Assembly: GCA_009840445.1 (NCBI GenBank)
Contig: VXNS01000051.1
Location: 1 to 33,427, forward strand
Source: Synechococcus sp. SB0662_bin_14
GTDB taxonomy: Bacteria > Cyanobacteriota > Cyanobacteriia > PCC-6307 > Cyanobiaceae
Direction of reading: 5' to 3'
Length of the DNA stretch: 33,427 bases
This document shows positions 6,963 to 16,150 of the stretch, piece after piece. The notes beneath the pieces were generated by a model. That model ran no database searches. It was not told the origin of the DNA and saw only the letters and a program-made list of their open reading frames with translations. Made by a program: the position numbers and the translations under genes. The first letter of the stretch is position 1. Each line of letters begins with the position of its first letter.

Positions 6963-8152
<1,190 letters not shown>

Positions 8153-10149: not shown

Positions 10150-12078
10150 ATGGGCAAGGTCGTTGGCATTGATCTCGGCACCACCAACAGTTGTGTCGCC
10201 GTGATGGAGGGTGGCAAGCCCACGGTGATCGCCAATGCCGAGGGGTTCCGCACCACCCCGTCCGTGGTGGCCTACACCAAGAACAAGGACCAGCTTGTTG
10301 GGCAGATTGCCAAGCGTCAGGCGGTGATGAACCCTGGTAACACCTTCTATTCGGCCAAGCGGTTCATTGGTCGCCGCACCGAGGAGGTGAGCGAGGAACT
10401 CAAGGAAGTGGCCTACGGGGTGAAGAATGCCGGCAGCCGGGTGAAAATTGACTGCCCGATGCTGGCCAAGGAGTTTGCGCCGGAGGAAGTGTCTGCCCAG
10501 GTGTTGCGCAAGCTGGCGGATGATGCCAGCACCTACCTGGGGGACAAGGTGACCCAGGCGGTGGTGACGGTGCCCGCTTACTTCAACGACTCCCAGCGCC
10601 AAGCCACCAAGGACGCGGGCAAAATTGCCGGCCTGGAAGTGAAGCGCATCATCAACGAACCCACGGCCGCGGCTCTGGCCTACGGCTTGGAGAAAAAGAA
10701 CAACGAGCGCATCCTGGTGTTCGATCTGGGGGGCGGCACCTTTGACGTGTCTGTGCTGGAAGTGGGAGACGGGGTGTTTGAGGTGCTGGCAACAAGCGGG
10801 GACACCCACTTGGGCGGTGACGACTTCGACAAGATGATCGTGGACCACCTGGCCGGTACGTTCAAGTCCGAAGAAGGAATTGACCTGCGTCAGGACAAGC
10901 AGGCCCTGCAACGGCTGACGGAAGCGGCGGAGAAGGCAAAGATCGAACTCTCCAGCGCCACCCAGAGCGAGATCAACTTGCCGTTCATCACCGCCACTCA
11001 AGACGGCCCCAAGCACTTGAACGTGACCATCACCCGGGCCCGCTTCGAGGAGCTGTCCAGCCATCTGATCGACCGTTGCCGCACGCCGGTGGAGAGGGCG
11101 CTGGCCGACGCCAAGCTTTCCGCAGGCGAACTGGACGAGGTGGTGATGGTGGGTGGCTCCACCCGCATCCCCGCCGTGAAAGAGCTGGTGAAGAAGGTGA
11201 CCGGCAAGGATCCCAACCAGTCGGTGAATCCCGACGAGGTGGTGGCCGTCGGCGCCGCCATTCAAGGTGGGGTGCTGTCCGGTGACGTGAAAGACATCCT
11301 CCTGCTGGACGTGACGCCCCTGTCCCTCGGTGTGGAAACCCTCGGTGGCGTGATGACCAGGATGATTGACCGCAACACCACCATTCCCACCAAGAAGGAG
11401 CAGGTGTACTCCACGGCGGTGGACGGCCAGACCAACGTGGAAATTCAGGTGCTCCAGGGTGAGCGGGAGATGGCCAAGGACAACAAGAGCCTGGGCACCT
11501 TCAAACTGGAGGGCATCCCCCCGGCGCCCCGTGGCGTGCCCCAGATCAAGGTGACCTTCGACATTGACGCCAACGGCATTTTGAACGTCACCGCCCGGGA
11601 CGAGGGCAGCGGCAAGGAGCAGTCCATTTCCATTACGGGATCCTCCACCCTGAACGAGAAGGAGGTGGACCGGATGGTGAAGGACGCCGAAGACAACGCC
11701 ACTGCCGACAAGCAGAAGCGGGAACGCATTGACCTGCGCAACGAAGCTGACAGTTTGGTCTACCAGGCGGAAAAGCAACTGGCGGAGCTGGGAGACAAGC
11801 TGCCCGCTGCCGAGAAAGAAAAGGTGGAAGCCCTCAACAAGGACCTCAAAGAAGCCCTGGAGAGTGAAGACCTGAACCGCATCAAGTCCTTGAAGGATCA
11901 GGTGCAGCAGGCCCTCTATGCTGCGGGAGCATCGGTCTACCAGCAAGGTGCCGGCCAGGGCCCAGACGCTGCCCCGGGTCAGGACCCAACGACTGCCGCC
12001 ACTGCTGGAGCCTCCACAGGCGGCTCCAGCAGTGGCGGCGACGACGTGATTGATGCGGACTTCACGGAGACCAAGTAA
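10150..12078 (+). CDS. dnaK: Chaperone DnaK (Hsp70)
   Basis: ATP-dependent protein-folding chaperone. The ATPase domain opens with [17 protein letters not shown] and includes [19 protein letters not shown] and [16 protein letters not shown]. The linker and substrate-binding domain begin at [19 protein letters not shown]. The C-terminus has a Gly/Ser/Ala-rich spacer and ends with the tail [12 protein letters not shown]. Length is 642 residues. ATG 10150 is preceded by GAGG at 10136-10139. No dnaJ or grpE is adjacent and I see no CIRCE element upstream. Two strong hairpins follow the stop. Picocyanobacteria have several DnaK paralogues; the DDVIDADF tail suggests the general cytosolic type. Confidence 0.97.
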
Positions 12079-12104
12079 AGGGAAACCAAGTCAAAGGAGT
12101 AAAA

Positions 12105-12124
12105 GGGAGGTGTTGGCGCCTCCC
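12105..12124 (+). terminator. Hairpin after dnaK (first)
   Basis: GGGAGG at 12105-12110 pairs with CCTCCC at 12119-12124 across an 8-nt loop, 26 nt after the dnaK stop. No T-run follows, so it may act as an RNA 3'-end stabiliser or an attenuated terminator rather than a classical intrinsic terminator. Confidence 0.5.
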
Positions 12125-12147
12125 ATGGCCATGACGTTGGGGGACCA

Positions 12148-12167
12148 GGGGGGCACGTCGTCCCCCC
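12148..12167 (+). terminator. Hairpin after dnaK (second)
   Basis: GGGGGG at 12148-12153 and CCCCCC at 12162-12167 form a perfect 6-bp G:C stem with an 8-nt loop. It is followed by ATTCCTTTGTG, a weak U-rich tail. It lies between the convergent dnaK and beta-barrel protein genes and could serve either. Confidence 0.5.
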
Positions 12168-12202
12168 ATTCCTTTGTGATTGCCCCCGGTCCACGACAGT
12201 GT

Positions 12203-13225
12203 TCAAAAGGCATATCTTAATGAAGAGATAATGCTTGTCTCGTTTGTATCCGTGAATCGTACGCCATCGATTATCGTCTTGGATCGAGCATGATTGAGCC
12301 CAAAGTTTGCAGATAATCCCCGTGCAACGTCATACTGAGCGCCAAGGGCTATGGAGATCTCGTCATGACCTTCGATGCGGCCGACATGGCCTTCAATGGA
12401 AAGAGTTACGACACCCACCTTGGTGGAAACACCTGACGATACATGGCAGCGATTCGCATCTGGCCCCTTTGATGAGAACCATTCACAACCAACGCCAATG
12501 TCGAATAACGAACTGCCGTAGATGAACTCACTGACGAGAGCGAGGGCTGTTGTATCAAACGAAGAAGAGTCAGCGGCCGTGAAATCACCAGTTGTGGCGC
12601 GAAAGGTCAGGCGATAGTCTCTGGTGCCGGCGGGACGCTGGACCATGGCCCCCAGATCCATGTGTCCTTCCCCATCCACAACGCCACTGAATACCCAAGG
12701 TCCAAAGCGGCCCACATAGCCGCCTCCCCATTCCCCCAACTCCCCAAGGGCGTTGTCAAACGCCAAGAAGGCATTGCCCGCTCCCCGCTGGCGCCGTGTC
12801 TGTTCACGAACAACATCGGAGACATTGCCAGCCAATACGGTGCCCCAGGCGCCACTCACCGATAATGTTGTATTGTCGGTGTAACCTTGGTCCAATTCGG
12901 CATGGAACACGTCGTCACTGGCATAGTAACCGGAATAATCCAACTCGACACGCAAGCGATTCGGCAGTTGGGTTAGAGCGCCGATTTGAAGATTGCCAAC
13001 CAGGCCAGCGTCGATGGCGTGTTCGACCGAAACATCGTAAGTTGCCATGGTGTCCAGAAAACCGCTCAGCAGCAAGGTCACGTCACCGATTTCAGTGGCC
13101 ATGGGTTTTTCCATGAAGGACAGGCGCTCGGGAAAATCCTGACCGGCGGCTGGAGTGGCGACAAGTGTGCCAGCGACCATTGCCGCTGCAACCGCCCATG
13201 GTTTTCCGTGTGTGTGGATCGTCAT
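12203..13225 (-). CDS. Predicted outer-membrane beta-barrel (porin-like) protein
   Basis: A 340-residue exported protein. The N-terminus has a signal peptide (basic start, hydrophobic AVAAAMVAGTLVATPAAG, likely cleavage before QDFPER). The rest alternates short amphipathic strands with Gly/Asp/Asn turns, for example RVELDYSGYY, YVGRFGPWVFSGVVDG and DYRLTFRATTGDF. The protein ends in IISSLRYAF, a terminal aromatic strand of the kind recognised by the BAM complex. It lacks the S-layer-homology domain of normal cyanobacterial porins and looks more like proteobacterial porins. GC content is low (29 of 60 bases at 12241-12300 by my count). It lies 6 nt downstream of the haloperoxidase, so it is probably the second gene of an operon. 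The exact family is not recognised. Confidence 0.7.
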   Translation of the reverse strand: MTIHTHGKPWAVAAAMVAGTLVATPAAGQDFPERLSFMEKPMATEIGDVTLLLSGFLDTMATYDVSVEHAIDAGLVGNLQIGALTQLPNRLRVELDYSGYYASDDVFHAELDQGYTDNTTLSVSGAWGTVLAGNVSDVVREQTRRQRGAGNAFLAFDNALGELGEWGGGYVGRFGPWVFSGVVDGEGHMDLGAMVQRPAGTRDYRLTFRATTGDFTAADSSSFDTTALALVSEFIYGSSLFDIGVGCEWFSSKGPDANRCHVSSGVSTKVGVVTLSIEGHVGRIEGHDEISIALGAQYDVARGLSANFGLNHARSKTIIDGVRFTDTNETSIISSLRYAF

Positions 13226-13231
13226 TGTGTG

Positions 13232-14629
13232 TCAAGCCTTGGGTGGAAACGTCCCATGGAAAGCCTGCCGGGCAATGGCGCGCCCGGCTTTCATGGCCTC
13301 GCTATGGTCTACCGGCCAATGGACGCCGCCATAGAGACGGCTCATCCCGTTTTCGTCCGCCATGTGACTCAGACTGCTCCAGTGCCGAACGACGCCCCGC
13401 AATTGGGGCCACAGCACTTCATCAGGGGAGCGTCCGGAGAACGCAATGTCGTCCCGTCCGTGGATCAGGGCGATCATTTCAGCGGCAGCGGCGCCGAAAG
13501 TGGAGTGCCCGGATGTATAGGCCGGAAACTCGGGCGTCGGAATGTAGCTATGCCAGCGGGGATGGCGTTTGACCCGCGGATCCGGGTTGCCAAACTGCGG
13601 CGCCCGGGCACGAATGGCGCTCTCCGGTCTGAGGATGTCATAATGGTACTTGTTATCCCAGGCGCAGATGGAGGCGTCGCATTGCGTCATGCCGATCAGG
13701 GCAAACGCACGGGCAAGCTCAATGAAGCTGAGGCCCCGATCCTGAAGGAGCTGCATGGCAATATACAGGAAGTGTCCAGGTGGCGTTATGCCCCAGGGGC
13801 CATCTTCCCAAAACAACGCAATCTGCGATTGATCGTCGGTTCGCACGGTGCTGTTCGCTGCTCCCAAATGGCAGATCTTGTCAAACACCTGGGCAAATTC
13901 TGGGCTGGCTGGATCATAGAAATCGGTTGCGCGGAATTGCGAACCACTGGTCATCGTCCAGGGCTTCATCTTTCCCTGTCCTGGACGTAAACCCCGGTCA
14001 AAAGATGCAAATGCTGGACCTGGTGTGGCGCCATAGAATGGACCTGTCGGGTACCAGCGCAAGGAATCGGCACGCCGCCCATAACGGTCAAAATAATAAT
14101 TGACCTCGCTAGGCTCAGAGCCGTCGTTGGTGCGCATTTTACAGATCCTTCGCCCCACGGTCTTGCCCCATTCAACCCCCAGGGACTTGGCCTCGTTGTT
14201 GGGAAACTGGTTCAGGAACGCAATGCGCTCAAACAAAAAAGGTTGTTGAAACGCTTCAGCCGCCGCTTCTGCAAAAGCGATCCCATAGGCAACTTCCGGG
14301 TTTGCCTCACGTGGTCCAGCGCCAATTCCAAACGGTTCCCCATAGGCTTGAACGATCCCGTTTGCGGCAAGAAAACCTGCCGCTGTGGCCAGGCCGTAAT
14401 TGTAAGCCGCCTGGGGTGTAAGGACTCTTTGGTCTCGCACCTGTTGCAACACCGCATCCACACACTGGAAAACAGTGTTCCAATGCTGTGGCTGGACAAT
14501 CTGGGTGCCATAGGAGGATTGGTGACCAAAGGGGGCAATATGGGGAGAAGGGCAACCTGTAACCAGAGTGGCGACGCCAGTGGCAGCGGTGGCCAGGAGA
14601 AACTTTCGCCTAGAAAAAGTACTTCTCAT
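13232..14629 (-). CDS. Vanadium-dependent haloperoxidase-like protein (PAP2 superfamily), Tat-exported lipoprotein
   Basis: Enzyme of the vanadium haloperoxidase/acid phosphatase superfamily; the likely reaction is oxidation of halide with H2O2, but phosphatase activity is not excluded. From ATG 14629 the protein has 465 residues. The N-terminus carries a twin-arginine motif (SRRKFLLA) and a lipobox VTGC, so export by Tat and lipid anchoring are predicted. All vanadate-binding signatures are present: K-x6-RP in NKYHYDILRP, SGH in YTSGHSTFGAA, and R-x5-H in SRLYGGVHWPVDH. The frame is open to 14683, but MRSTFSRRKF is the plausible start. The porin-like gene follows after 6 nt. GC is lower than in the flanking core genes, suggesting acquisition. 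Halide specificity cannot be read from sequence. Confidence 0.85.
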   Translation of the reverse strand: MRSTFSRRKFLLATAATGVATLVTGCPSPHIAPFGHQSSYGTQIVQPQHWNTVFQCVDAVLQQVRDQRVLTPQAAYNYGLATAAGFLAANGIVQAYGEPFGIGAGPREANPEVAYGIAFAEAAAEAFQQPFLFERIAFLNQFPNNEAKSLGVEWGKTVGRRICKMRTNDGSEPSEVNYYFDRYGRRADSLRWYPTGPFYGATPGPAFASFDRGLRPGQGKMKPWTMTSGSQFRATDFYDPASPEFAQVFDKICHLGAANSTVRTDDQSQIALFWEDGPWGITPPGHFLYIAMQLLQDRGLSFIELARAFALIGMTQCDASICAWDNKYHYDILRPESAIRARAPQFGNPDPRVKRHPRWHSYIPTPEFPAYTSGHSTFGAAAAEMIALIHGRDDIAFSGRSPDEVLWPQLRGVVRHWSSLSHMADENGMSRLYGGVHWPVDHSEAMKAGRAIARQAFHGTFPPKA

Positions 14630-14693
14630 AAGGGCAGAACGAGAAAAGGCAAACCCCAGGAACAGAGTGGGAGGGATGTCCACTGTGTTCTTG

Positions 14694-14711
14694 TGACAAT
14701 AGTGTTGACAA
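14694..14711. repeat. 12-bp-period direct repeat upstream of haloperoxidase
   Basis: TGACAA occurs at 14694-14699 and again at 14706-14711 with 6 nt between them. Read on the minus strand it is TTGTCA twice, 65-82 nt upstream of the ATG at 14629. Each copy resembles a -35 hexamer, but the -10 regions at normal spacing are poor. It could be a regulator site; the evidence is weak. Confidence 0.3.
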
Positions 14712-15350
14712 GCCGCAGGAACTTTGTCCGCTGCTGGAGAGAGTTCTTCAGCAGAAGCACGAGAGTCTGGAGGGGCGCAAAAGGATCGACGTGATCGTTG
14801 TATTCAGAATGTTGATCCTTTCCAATAATTCAATGGTCTCATTGTTCGTTCATGGTAAAGCTTGAGACAAGGAGGATTAATTCTTTTTGGTGTTGTTGCG
14901 GGGGGGGGTAAATCGCCTTGCAAGAAGCAAAAAGCATGGGGTCAGTCCTGCATCAATCGCTATTAAGCGTAGCTCTCCACTTCAACCCAGGCAACCACCT
15001 GTTGATCGTTTGGTATCAAAAGTAGCACTCTTTTCGACTTTTTAAGAAATCTCTGAAGACATGCCACAAAAATTGAAACCTCAAGAAGGACACTCCCCTC
15101 TTACCAACACTGGAGCACTGGCGTCTCATCCGCTCCAGAAATCGCTCCCTTCACTCCCCGATACCCAGGCATTCTCCAACTTCAGGCCCCCAAGCCGGCT
15201 GGGCATCGCCCATGCCTTCAAAATTTGGGAATGATGCCTGTGCCCCATGAACCAGCACCAACACACCGCGCCGTAGTCAGGCCCCCCTGCATAGCCTTGA
15301 CCATGGCCAGTTCCCAGCCCAGCCCCCAAAGCGCTAAACTCTTCCCCACG
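14712..15350. other. Long non-coding, AT-richer stretch between haloperoxidase and glyoxalase II
   Basis: About 640 nt without a convincing gene. It contains a perfect anti-Shine-Dalgarno match (AAGGAGG, 14869-14875), a G9 homopolymer (14900-14908), and AT-rich DNA up to about 15120, after which GC rises again. A 52-codon frame starting TTG at 14887 and stopping at 15045 lies 11 nt after the AAGGAGG, but its product is basic and unrecognisable. No tRNA-like fold or strong intrinsic terminator was seen. The stretch probably marks the right edge of the accessory island. Confidence 0.5.
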
Positions 15351-15358
15351 GTGACGGA

Positions 15359-16150
15359 GTGACCTGCTTGCGCATTCGTCGGCTGCCTGTCCTGCGGGAT
15401 AACCTCATCCCCCTGTTGGAACGTCCCCACCAACGGCAGGCCGCCGTGGTGGACCCAGCGGATGCCGAGCCGGTGATCACGGCGCTGGAGCAGGGGGAGA
15501 TGGAGTTGGTGGCAGTGCTGCACACCCATCACCACTGGGACCATGTTGGCGGAACCACGGAGCTGCTGCGCCGCTGGCCCCGGGCCATGGTGGCGGGCAA
15601 CGCCAAGGACCAGCACCGCCTGCCGCCCCTCTCCCATCCGGTAACGGACGGGGACAGCTTTGAATTGTTGGGGCGTTCCGTGCAGGTGCTGACCCTCCCG
15701 GGTCACACCGTTGGTCACGTTGCCTATCTCTTGTCGGCCTGCGTGGTCGATGGCCAACGGCAACCGCCGGAGTTGTTTTGTGGGGATACCCTCTTCTCCT
15801 GCGGCTGTGGCCGTCTATTTGAGGGCACACCGGCTCAAATGCTCGGGTCGTTGCAGCGCCTGGCCGCCCTGCCGCCCGACACACGCATCTGGTGTGCCCA
15901 TGAGTACACCGCCAAAAACGTGGACTTTGCCCTTTCTCAGGATCCCCACAACCCGCACCTGCAAGCCTTCGCCCACCACGTGGAGCAACTGCGCCAGGCC
16001 CAACTGCCCACCATCCCGTCCCGCCTGGAGACGGAGTTGCGGGTGAACCCCTTTCTGCGCTGCCATGCCCCCGCCTTGCAGGCGGCCACGGGCAAGACGG
16101 ATCCCGTGGAGGTGCTGGCGGAGTTGCGCCAACGGCGTAACCAGGTTTAG
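15359..16150 (+). CDS. gloB: Hydroxyacylglutathione hydrolase (glyoxalase II)
   Basis: Metallo-beta-lactamase-fold thiolesterase that releases D-lactate from S-lactoylglutathione in methylglyoxal detoxification. The binuclear-metal motif is THHHWDHVGG (THxHxDH), with further ligands in LPGHTVGHVAYLL, the Asp in FCGDTLFSCGCGRLFEGT, and the histidine in WCAHEYTAKN. These FSxGCGRxFEG and HEYT blocks separate glyoxalase II from other family members. Length is 263 residues. The start is uncertain between GTG 15359 and TTG 15365; ACGGAG overlaps the first and would suit the second. Confidence 0.93.
   Translation: MTCLRIRRLPVLRDNLIPLLERPHQRQAAVVDPADAEPVITALEQGEMELVAVLHTHHHWDHVGGTTELLRRWPRAMVAGNAKDQHRLPPLSHPVTDGDSFELLGRSVQVLTLPGHTVGHVAYLLSACVVDGQRQPPELFCGDTLFSCGCGRLFEGTPAQMLGSLQRLAALPPDTRIWCAHEYTAKNVDFALSQDPHNPHLQAFAHHVEQLRQAQLPTIPSRLETELRVNPFLRCHAPALQAATGKTDPVEVLAELRQRRNQV

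Follow-up and report, generated by a model that had tools for sequence, protein, structure and literature searches.

The window, that is, the whole stretch of 33,427 nucleotides that was analysed, belongs to a Candidatus Synechococcus spongiarum-type cyanobacterium and carries a two-gene cassette between dnaK (10150–12078) and gloB (15359–16150). The inserted segment, to which no strand is assigned, spans 12085–15333 as delimited by blastn of the window against contig C47 of a close relative (G008). Both genes are read from the minus strand. The first encodes a vanadium-haloperoxidase-type enzyme with an RR (Tat) motif and a lipobox (13232–14629, counted from its likely ATG), as judged from the ORF, the alignment, the AlphaFold2 model, the PDB match and the ligands. 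The second (12203–13225; ORF, AlphaFold2 and Foldseek) encodes a predicted 16-strand general-porin-like outer-membrane barrel with an N-terminal signal and a C-terminal Phe and without an SLH domain. The 6 nt that the initial annotation had counted between the two genes are those at 13226–13231, a spacing consistent with a single transcript for both. An upstream non-coding segment of the cassette, recognized by comparison with G008, covers 14630–15010. The enzyme ORF can be read on the minus strand from a GTG (13232–14683); the initial annotation had extended the range to 14711, which falls outside this ORF, whose outermost codon is the GTG at 14683. As the alignments with almost all homologues begin at about residue 18–26, translation probably starts from the ATG at 14629, giving MRSTFSRRKFLLATAATGVATLVTGC. 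A scan for terminators and promoters gave a result no better than shuffled sequences.

PAP2 is the only Pfam family that scores above the cut-off on the enzyme, the second bundle of VCPO lying just below it. By sequence, the solved proteins most similar to the enzyme are the iodoperoxidase of Zobellia (E 8e-19) and the chloroperoxidase of Curvularia. The AlphaFold2 model of the enzyme (pLDDT 84.3) matches the former (4cit) with a Z of 38.2 over 374 residues at 2.7 Å, spanning residues 49–465, and the fungal vanadium chloroperoxidase (VCPO) with a Z of 29.4, against a Z of about 10.5 for acid phosphatases. In the model, the helical-bundle fold of vanadium haloperoxidases (VHPOs) extends over the whole enzyme, in contrast to the small fold of PAP2 phosphatases. 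The complete set of vanadate ligands claimed for this haloperoxidase-like enzyme by the initial annotation was located as K327-x6-R334-P335, S373-G374-H375 and R431-x5-H437 (numbered from ATG 14629) and is conserved across 71 aligned homologues, with K, R, P, G, H, R and H identical in all of them and S373 in 69. W324 and F368, which align with W350 and F397 of the fungal VCPO, are invariant in the same 71. The vanadate ligands are common to PAP2 acid phosphatases too. Three positions before the active-site Lys, the window enzyme has a Trp; the residue at this position has been discussed for halide choice, with the conclusion that specificity is not traceable to one residue (PMC11871015), and for this reason no halide preference is predicted here.

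The Tat motif and lipobox noted earlier are both present: an RR-x-(F/L) motif is followed by the lipobox Cys, SRRKFLLATAATGVATLVTGC, which predicts export and lipidation. The lipobox residue, Cys26, is at least 90% conserved in the homologue alignment, and the RR motif is found by a strict pattern in 64 of the 71 homologues. TatC is present in the host genome, so Tat export is possible in this host. Five Paracoccaceae homologues from Silicimonas/Boseongicola MAGs (L043, L046, L053, L057 and L058) have no Cys at the lipobox position and seem to be exported as soluble proteins; lipid anchoring is thus not universal.

The window porin has no Pfam or NCBIfam match, and neither an SLH nor an OprB domain was found in it with Pfam at E up to 1, which sets it apart from the SLH-OprB porins of cyanobacteria. 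The description of the protein as porin-like and free of an SLH domain therefore stands, with a porin barrel in the model. A search of its sequence against the PDB gave chance matches only. In the AlphaFold2 model (pLDDT 84.4), strands fill residues 42–339 and form a 16-strand-type barrel, with a helix at 138–143 within the segment of the inward (L3-type) loop. The best structural matches are Omp32 (Foldseek, E 6e-11) and OmpU (VIA, Z 26.8), and the model also resembles OmpT. A C-terminal F closes 66 of 71 homologues. The predicted barrel, the inward loop and the C-terminal aromatic are those expected of trimeric diffusion porins. When 67 homologues were compared with Pfam, three matched Porin_4 (best 2e-13) and four OMP_b-brl. 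In the homologue alignment, Arg140, 144, 145 and 147 of the inward segment are conserved, which suggests that the porin may prefer anions.

The two genes are strictly paired. Scanning 84,980 species genomes yielded 80 loci that encode relatives of the enzyme at 53–89% identity. Adjacency over genomes, the check proposed with the initial annotation, was found in every testable locus: the porin gene lies next to the enzyme, in the same order and on the same strand, in 78/78, and the other two loci stop at a contig edge. Such pairing is far beyond chance. The stop-to-start gap has a median of 4 nt in 70 homologous pairs and is 15 nt or less in 62 of them. Around the cassette there is otherwise no conservation, other neighbour gene families recurring in at most 8 loci. 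Among 289 Alphaproteobacteria sampled from across the class, all six strong enzyme matches (E <1e-180) adjoin a porin gene and a porin profile recovers the same six genomes only; the flanks examined around eight distant enzyme matches (~1.5 kb) contain no porin. In a similar sample of 369 Gammaproteobacteria, both strong matches are likewise paired; next to the distant matches, the flanking sequence examined contains no porin. The protein distance matrices of enzyme and porin correlate with r = 0.85, the permutation maximum being 0.18. An apparent enzyme–porin fusion (L089) was discarded, as the single ORF reads across a run of N in the assembled sequence. Some Alphaproteobacteria MAGs hold two diverged copies of the cassette per genome bin (L030 and L054 in G105; L035 and L038 in G106).

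The lower GC relative to flanking genes, from which transfer had been proposed, is confirmed. The enzyme gene has a GC of 57.4% and a GC3 of 0.61, the porin gene 54.4% and 0.56, and the flanking genes a GC3 of 0.71–0.83. In both the enzyme and the porin tree, the window copy forms one fully supported clade with those of SH4 and G008, and this cyanobacterial clade is nested among mainly Alpha- and Gammaproteobacteria MAGs, many of them sponge-derived; single Nitrospinota and Binatota MAGs also fall within that group. Neither tree, built as had been suggested together with the claim of transfer, is vertical within cyanobacteria. In a sample of 99 genomes of relatives, the porin occurs in only three, namely the window genome, SH4 (G006) and G008, and the other enzyme matches are distant haloperoxidases, besides a broken fragment in G002. 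Vertical cyanobacterial inheritance was rejected on the basis of both trees and this patchy distribution. For this genome, contamination of the bin was discarded too, given that the contig of 33 kb has the cassette in its interior, flanked by cyanobacterial dnaK and gloB, and that other assemblies of cyanobacteria contain the cassette as well. A plasmid or phage vector was rejected because plasmid and phage collections contain no close homologue (best identities 26–39%) and the cassette has no integrase. Composition, both trees, the empty dnaK–gloB site in G008 and a donor pool among sponge-associated Proteobacteria strongly support that the cassette was acquired by transfer.

The insertion sites differ within the genus. 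G006, of the same genus, matches record NZ_JENA01000184 (strain SH4), and G008 matches JAJDVL010000030, whose bin name belongs to the jk18x series, MAGs of Ircinia sponges (PMC9531527). In G008, dnaK and gloB are only ~317 nt apart, without the cassette, according to blastn of the window against C47. Its cassette lies instead between two tRNA-Leu(UAA) copies beside trpA, with a decayed trpA fragment alongside, and in the window genome the ndhH/tRNA-Leu/trpA site is empty. In the G008 locus (L166, 7534–10479), the direct tRNA-Leu(UAA) copies bound the cassette and have ~120 nt in common at 90% identity, and the decayed trpA fragment is at 7647–7741; it looks as if the tRNA-Leu/trpA region had been duplicated in tandem around the cassette. 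In SH4 (L023, 2425–3294), trpA is convergent with the porin gene and slightly overlaps its end, which places that cassette on the opposite side of trpA from the one in G008. Synonymous divergence between the window genome and G008 is 0.53–0.61 in the cassette and 0.12–0.33 in 17 host ORF comparisons, a contrast that codon bias could enlarge by lowering the host values. As the dnaK–gloB site of G008 is empty, another site is used and the cassette is more diverged than host genes, we think that the genus probably acquired it on more than one occasion. The most straightforward interpretation is that the window cassette arrived independently of that in G008/SH4, from a related source.

The regions upstream of the window and G008 cassettes have ~110 nt in common (near 14895–15008), 67% identical, which shows that one cassette lineage lies behind both. 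In the window, this segment (14895–15008) contains a run of G on the plus strand. It is possibly a promoter or leader, presumed to have moved with the cassette. The G-run motif is not a genome-wide repeat, for it occurs once in the window genome (G000) and once in G008, each time upstream of the cassette. Values of dN/dS among the cyanobacterial copies, 0.10–0.14 for the enzyme and 0.21–0.26 for the porin, correspond to purifying selection and indicate that the cassette is in use. G002 holds only an enzyme gene fragment (L167, 7244–7941), frameshifted and cut by the contig end, which could be a pseudogene or reflect a mistake in the draft assembly.

That enzyme and pore genes almost always travel together suggests that both share one job at the cell surface. 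The interpretation that we favour, with a probability of roughly 55%, is that the two genes form a mobile unit for halogenation in the envelope, with a pore of its own, present in marine, mostly sponge-associated Gram-negatives. The enzyme would fold in the cytoplasm, leave it by the Tat pathway and be held by a lipid anchor, either on the outer face of the inner membrane or in the inner leaflet of the outer one. The porin would be a 16-strand outer-membrane pore dedicated to it, passing small reaction solutes: H2O2, halide or vanadate inwards, and/or hypohalous acid or halogenated product outwards. H2O2 from photosynthesis, from neighbours or from the sponge might then be turned into reactive halogen at the cell surface, so that peroxide would be removed and neighbours affected (antimicrobial or quorum-quenching action). 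What the data themselves show is the anatomy, the predicted fold, the conserved ligands, a pairing both strict and exclusive, purifying selection, and uptake of the cassette by the cyanobacterium at more than one site; vanadate binding, halogenation, lipidation, location, transported solute and biological benefit are what we infer in this scheme. The initial annotation had proposed a joint envelope oxidant system; anatomy and co-occurrence lend good support to a haloperoxidase located in the envelope with its own pore, and the halogenation and the solute stay conjectural. Halide and H2O2 already pass through general porins, so that the need for a special pore is not evident in their case.

Two other readings are the main rivals of the dedicated-pore model. 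The barrel might be a scaffold that docks or surface-displays the lipoprotein enzyme, with halogenation outside the cell. Lipoprotein–porin complexes are known and offer a model for such an assembly, most enzyme members have a lipobox, and strict pairing with correlated evolution suits a physical complex no less than a common route for solutes. We nevertheless consider this unlikely, as the predicted fold is that of an ordinary diffusion porin, with its inward L3-type helix and no extra docking domain. A distinctly improbable reading, in our opinion, takes the enzyme for a periplasmic acid phosphatase or a non-halogenating VHPO homologue and lets the porin admit organic phosphate or another substrate. 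Vanadate and phosphate sites are interchangeable, PAP2 is the sole Pfam family above the cut-off, and the structure matches include NapH3 (8cxl), which has the VHPO fold and is described as an alpha-hydroxyketone rearrangement catalyst. However, the enzyme matches genuine haloperoxidases along its full length (Z 38 and 29, versus ~10.5 for acid phosphatases), and the residues aligned with VCPO W350 and F397 are invariant, both of which speak against this reading. That two genes without a shared function merely hitchhike in one operon is very unlikely: adjacent genes do move together and donor flanks vary freely, but this pair stays adjacent across Alpha- and Gammaproteobacteria and Cyanobacteria as all other neighbours change, and in none of the 289 alphaproteobacterial genomes was the porin found unaccompanied by the enzyme.

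Work on haloperoxidases usually treats them as enzymes acting on their own. Halogenated compounds abound in sponges, and little is known about which members of the sponge microbiome make reactive halogen. VHPOs and porins are both familiar, and a VHPO subfamily tied to its own porin is apparently undescribed in the searchable literature: no paper was found that joins S. spongiarum with a haloperoxidase, co-mentions of VHPO and porin come from unrelated work, and a subfamily tightly linked to its own porin and moving among sponge symbionts did not appear, which is weak evidence since subscription papers were mostly outside the search. An enzyme subfamily that is almost never without a pore would imply that outer-membrane transport is part of the way in which the reaction proceeds or in which the cell survives it. 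We tentatively propose, at somewhat less than even odds, that haloperoxidase and porin form one self-contained surface halogenation module that is spreading laterally among unrelated members of the sponge microbiome and gives them a shared halogen chemistry. The spread would span Proteobacteria and Cyanobacteria, and possibly the Nitrospinota and Binatota MAGs as well. The cassette can serve as a marker of what may be a common trait passed on laterally, and even the photosymbiont Candidatus Synechococcus spongiarum carries the cassette.

Among known systems, the vanadium iodoperoxidase of Zobellia galactanivorans (4cit, 4usz) is the best match in both sequence and structure, with identical residues at the aligned vanadate-site positions and ~21% identity to the window enzyme over the structural alignment; we know of no Tat lipoprotein start or partner porin for it. 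The vanadium chloroperoxidase of Curvularia inaequalis (1idq, 1vnc and others) has the same fold (Z 29), and its ligands K353, R360, S402, G403, H404, R490 and H496, together with W350 and F397, align with the window enzyme, but it is a fungal protein of 609 residues with lower similarity. The VHPO of Acaryochloris marina (5lpc), a cyanobacterial haloperoxidase, has the same catalytic core at far lower similarity (Z 9.6), and it carries an Arg three positions before the active-site Lys (PMC11871015), where the window enzyme has Trp. On the porin side, Comamonas Omp32 (2fgq/1e54) and Vibrio OmpU/OmpT (6ehb/6ehf) are porin barrels with an inward loop like the window porin, at only 12–17% identity, and the window protein has no sequence-family match. 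Unlike the genes of these trimeric porins, that of the window porin is tied to a haloperoxidase.
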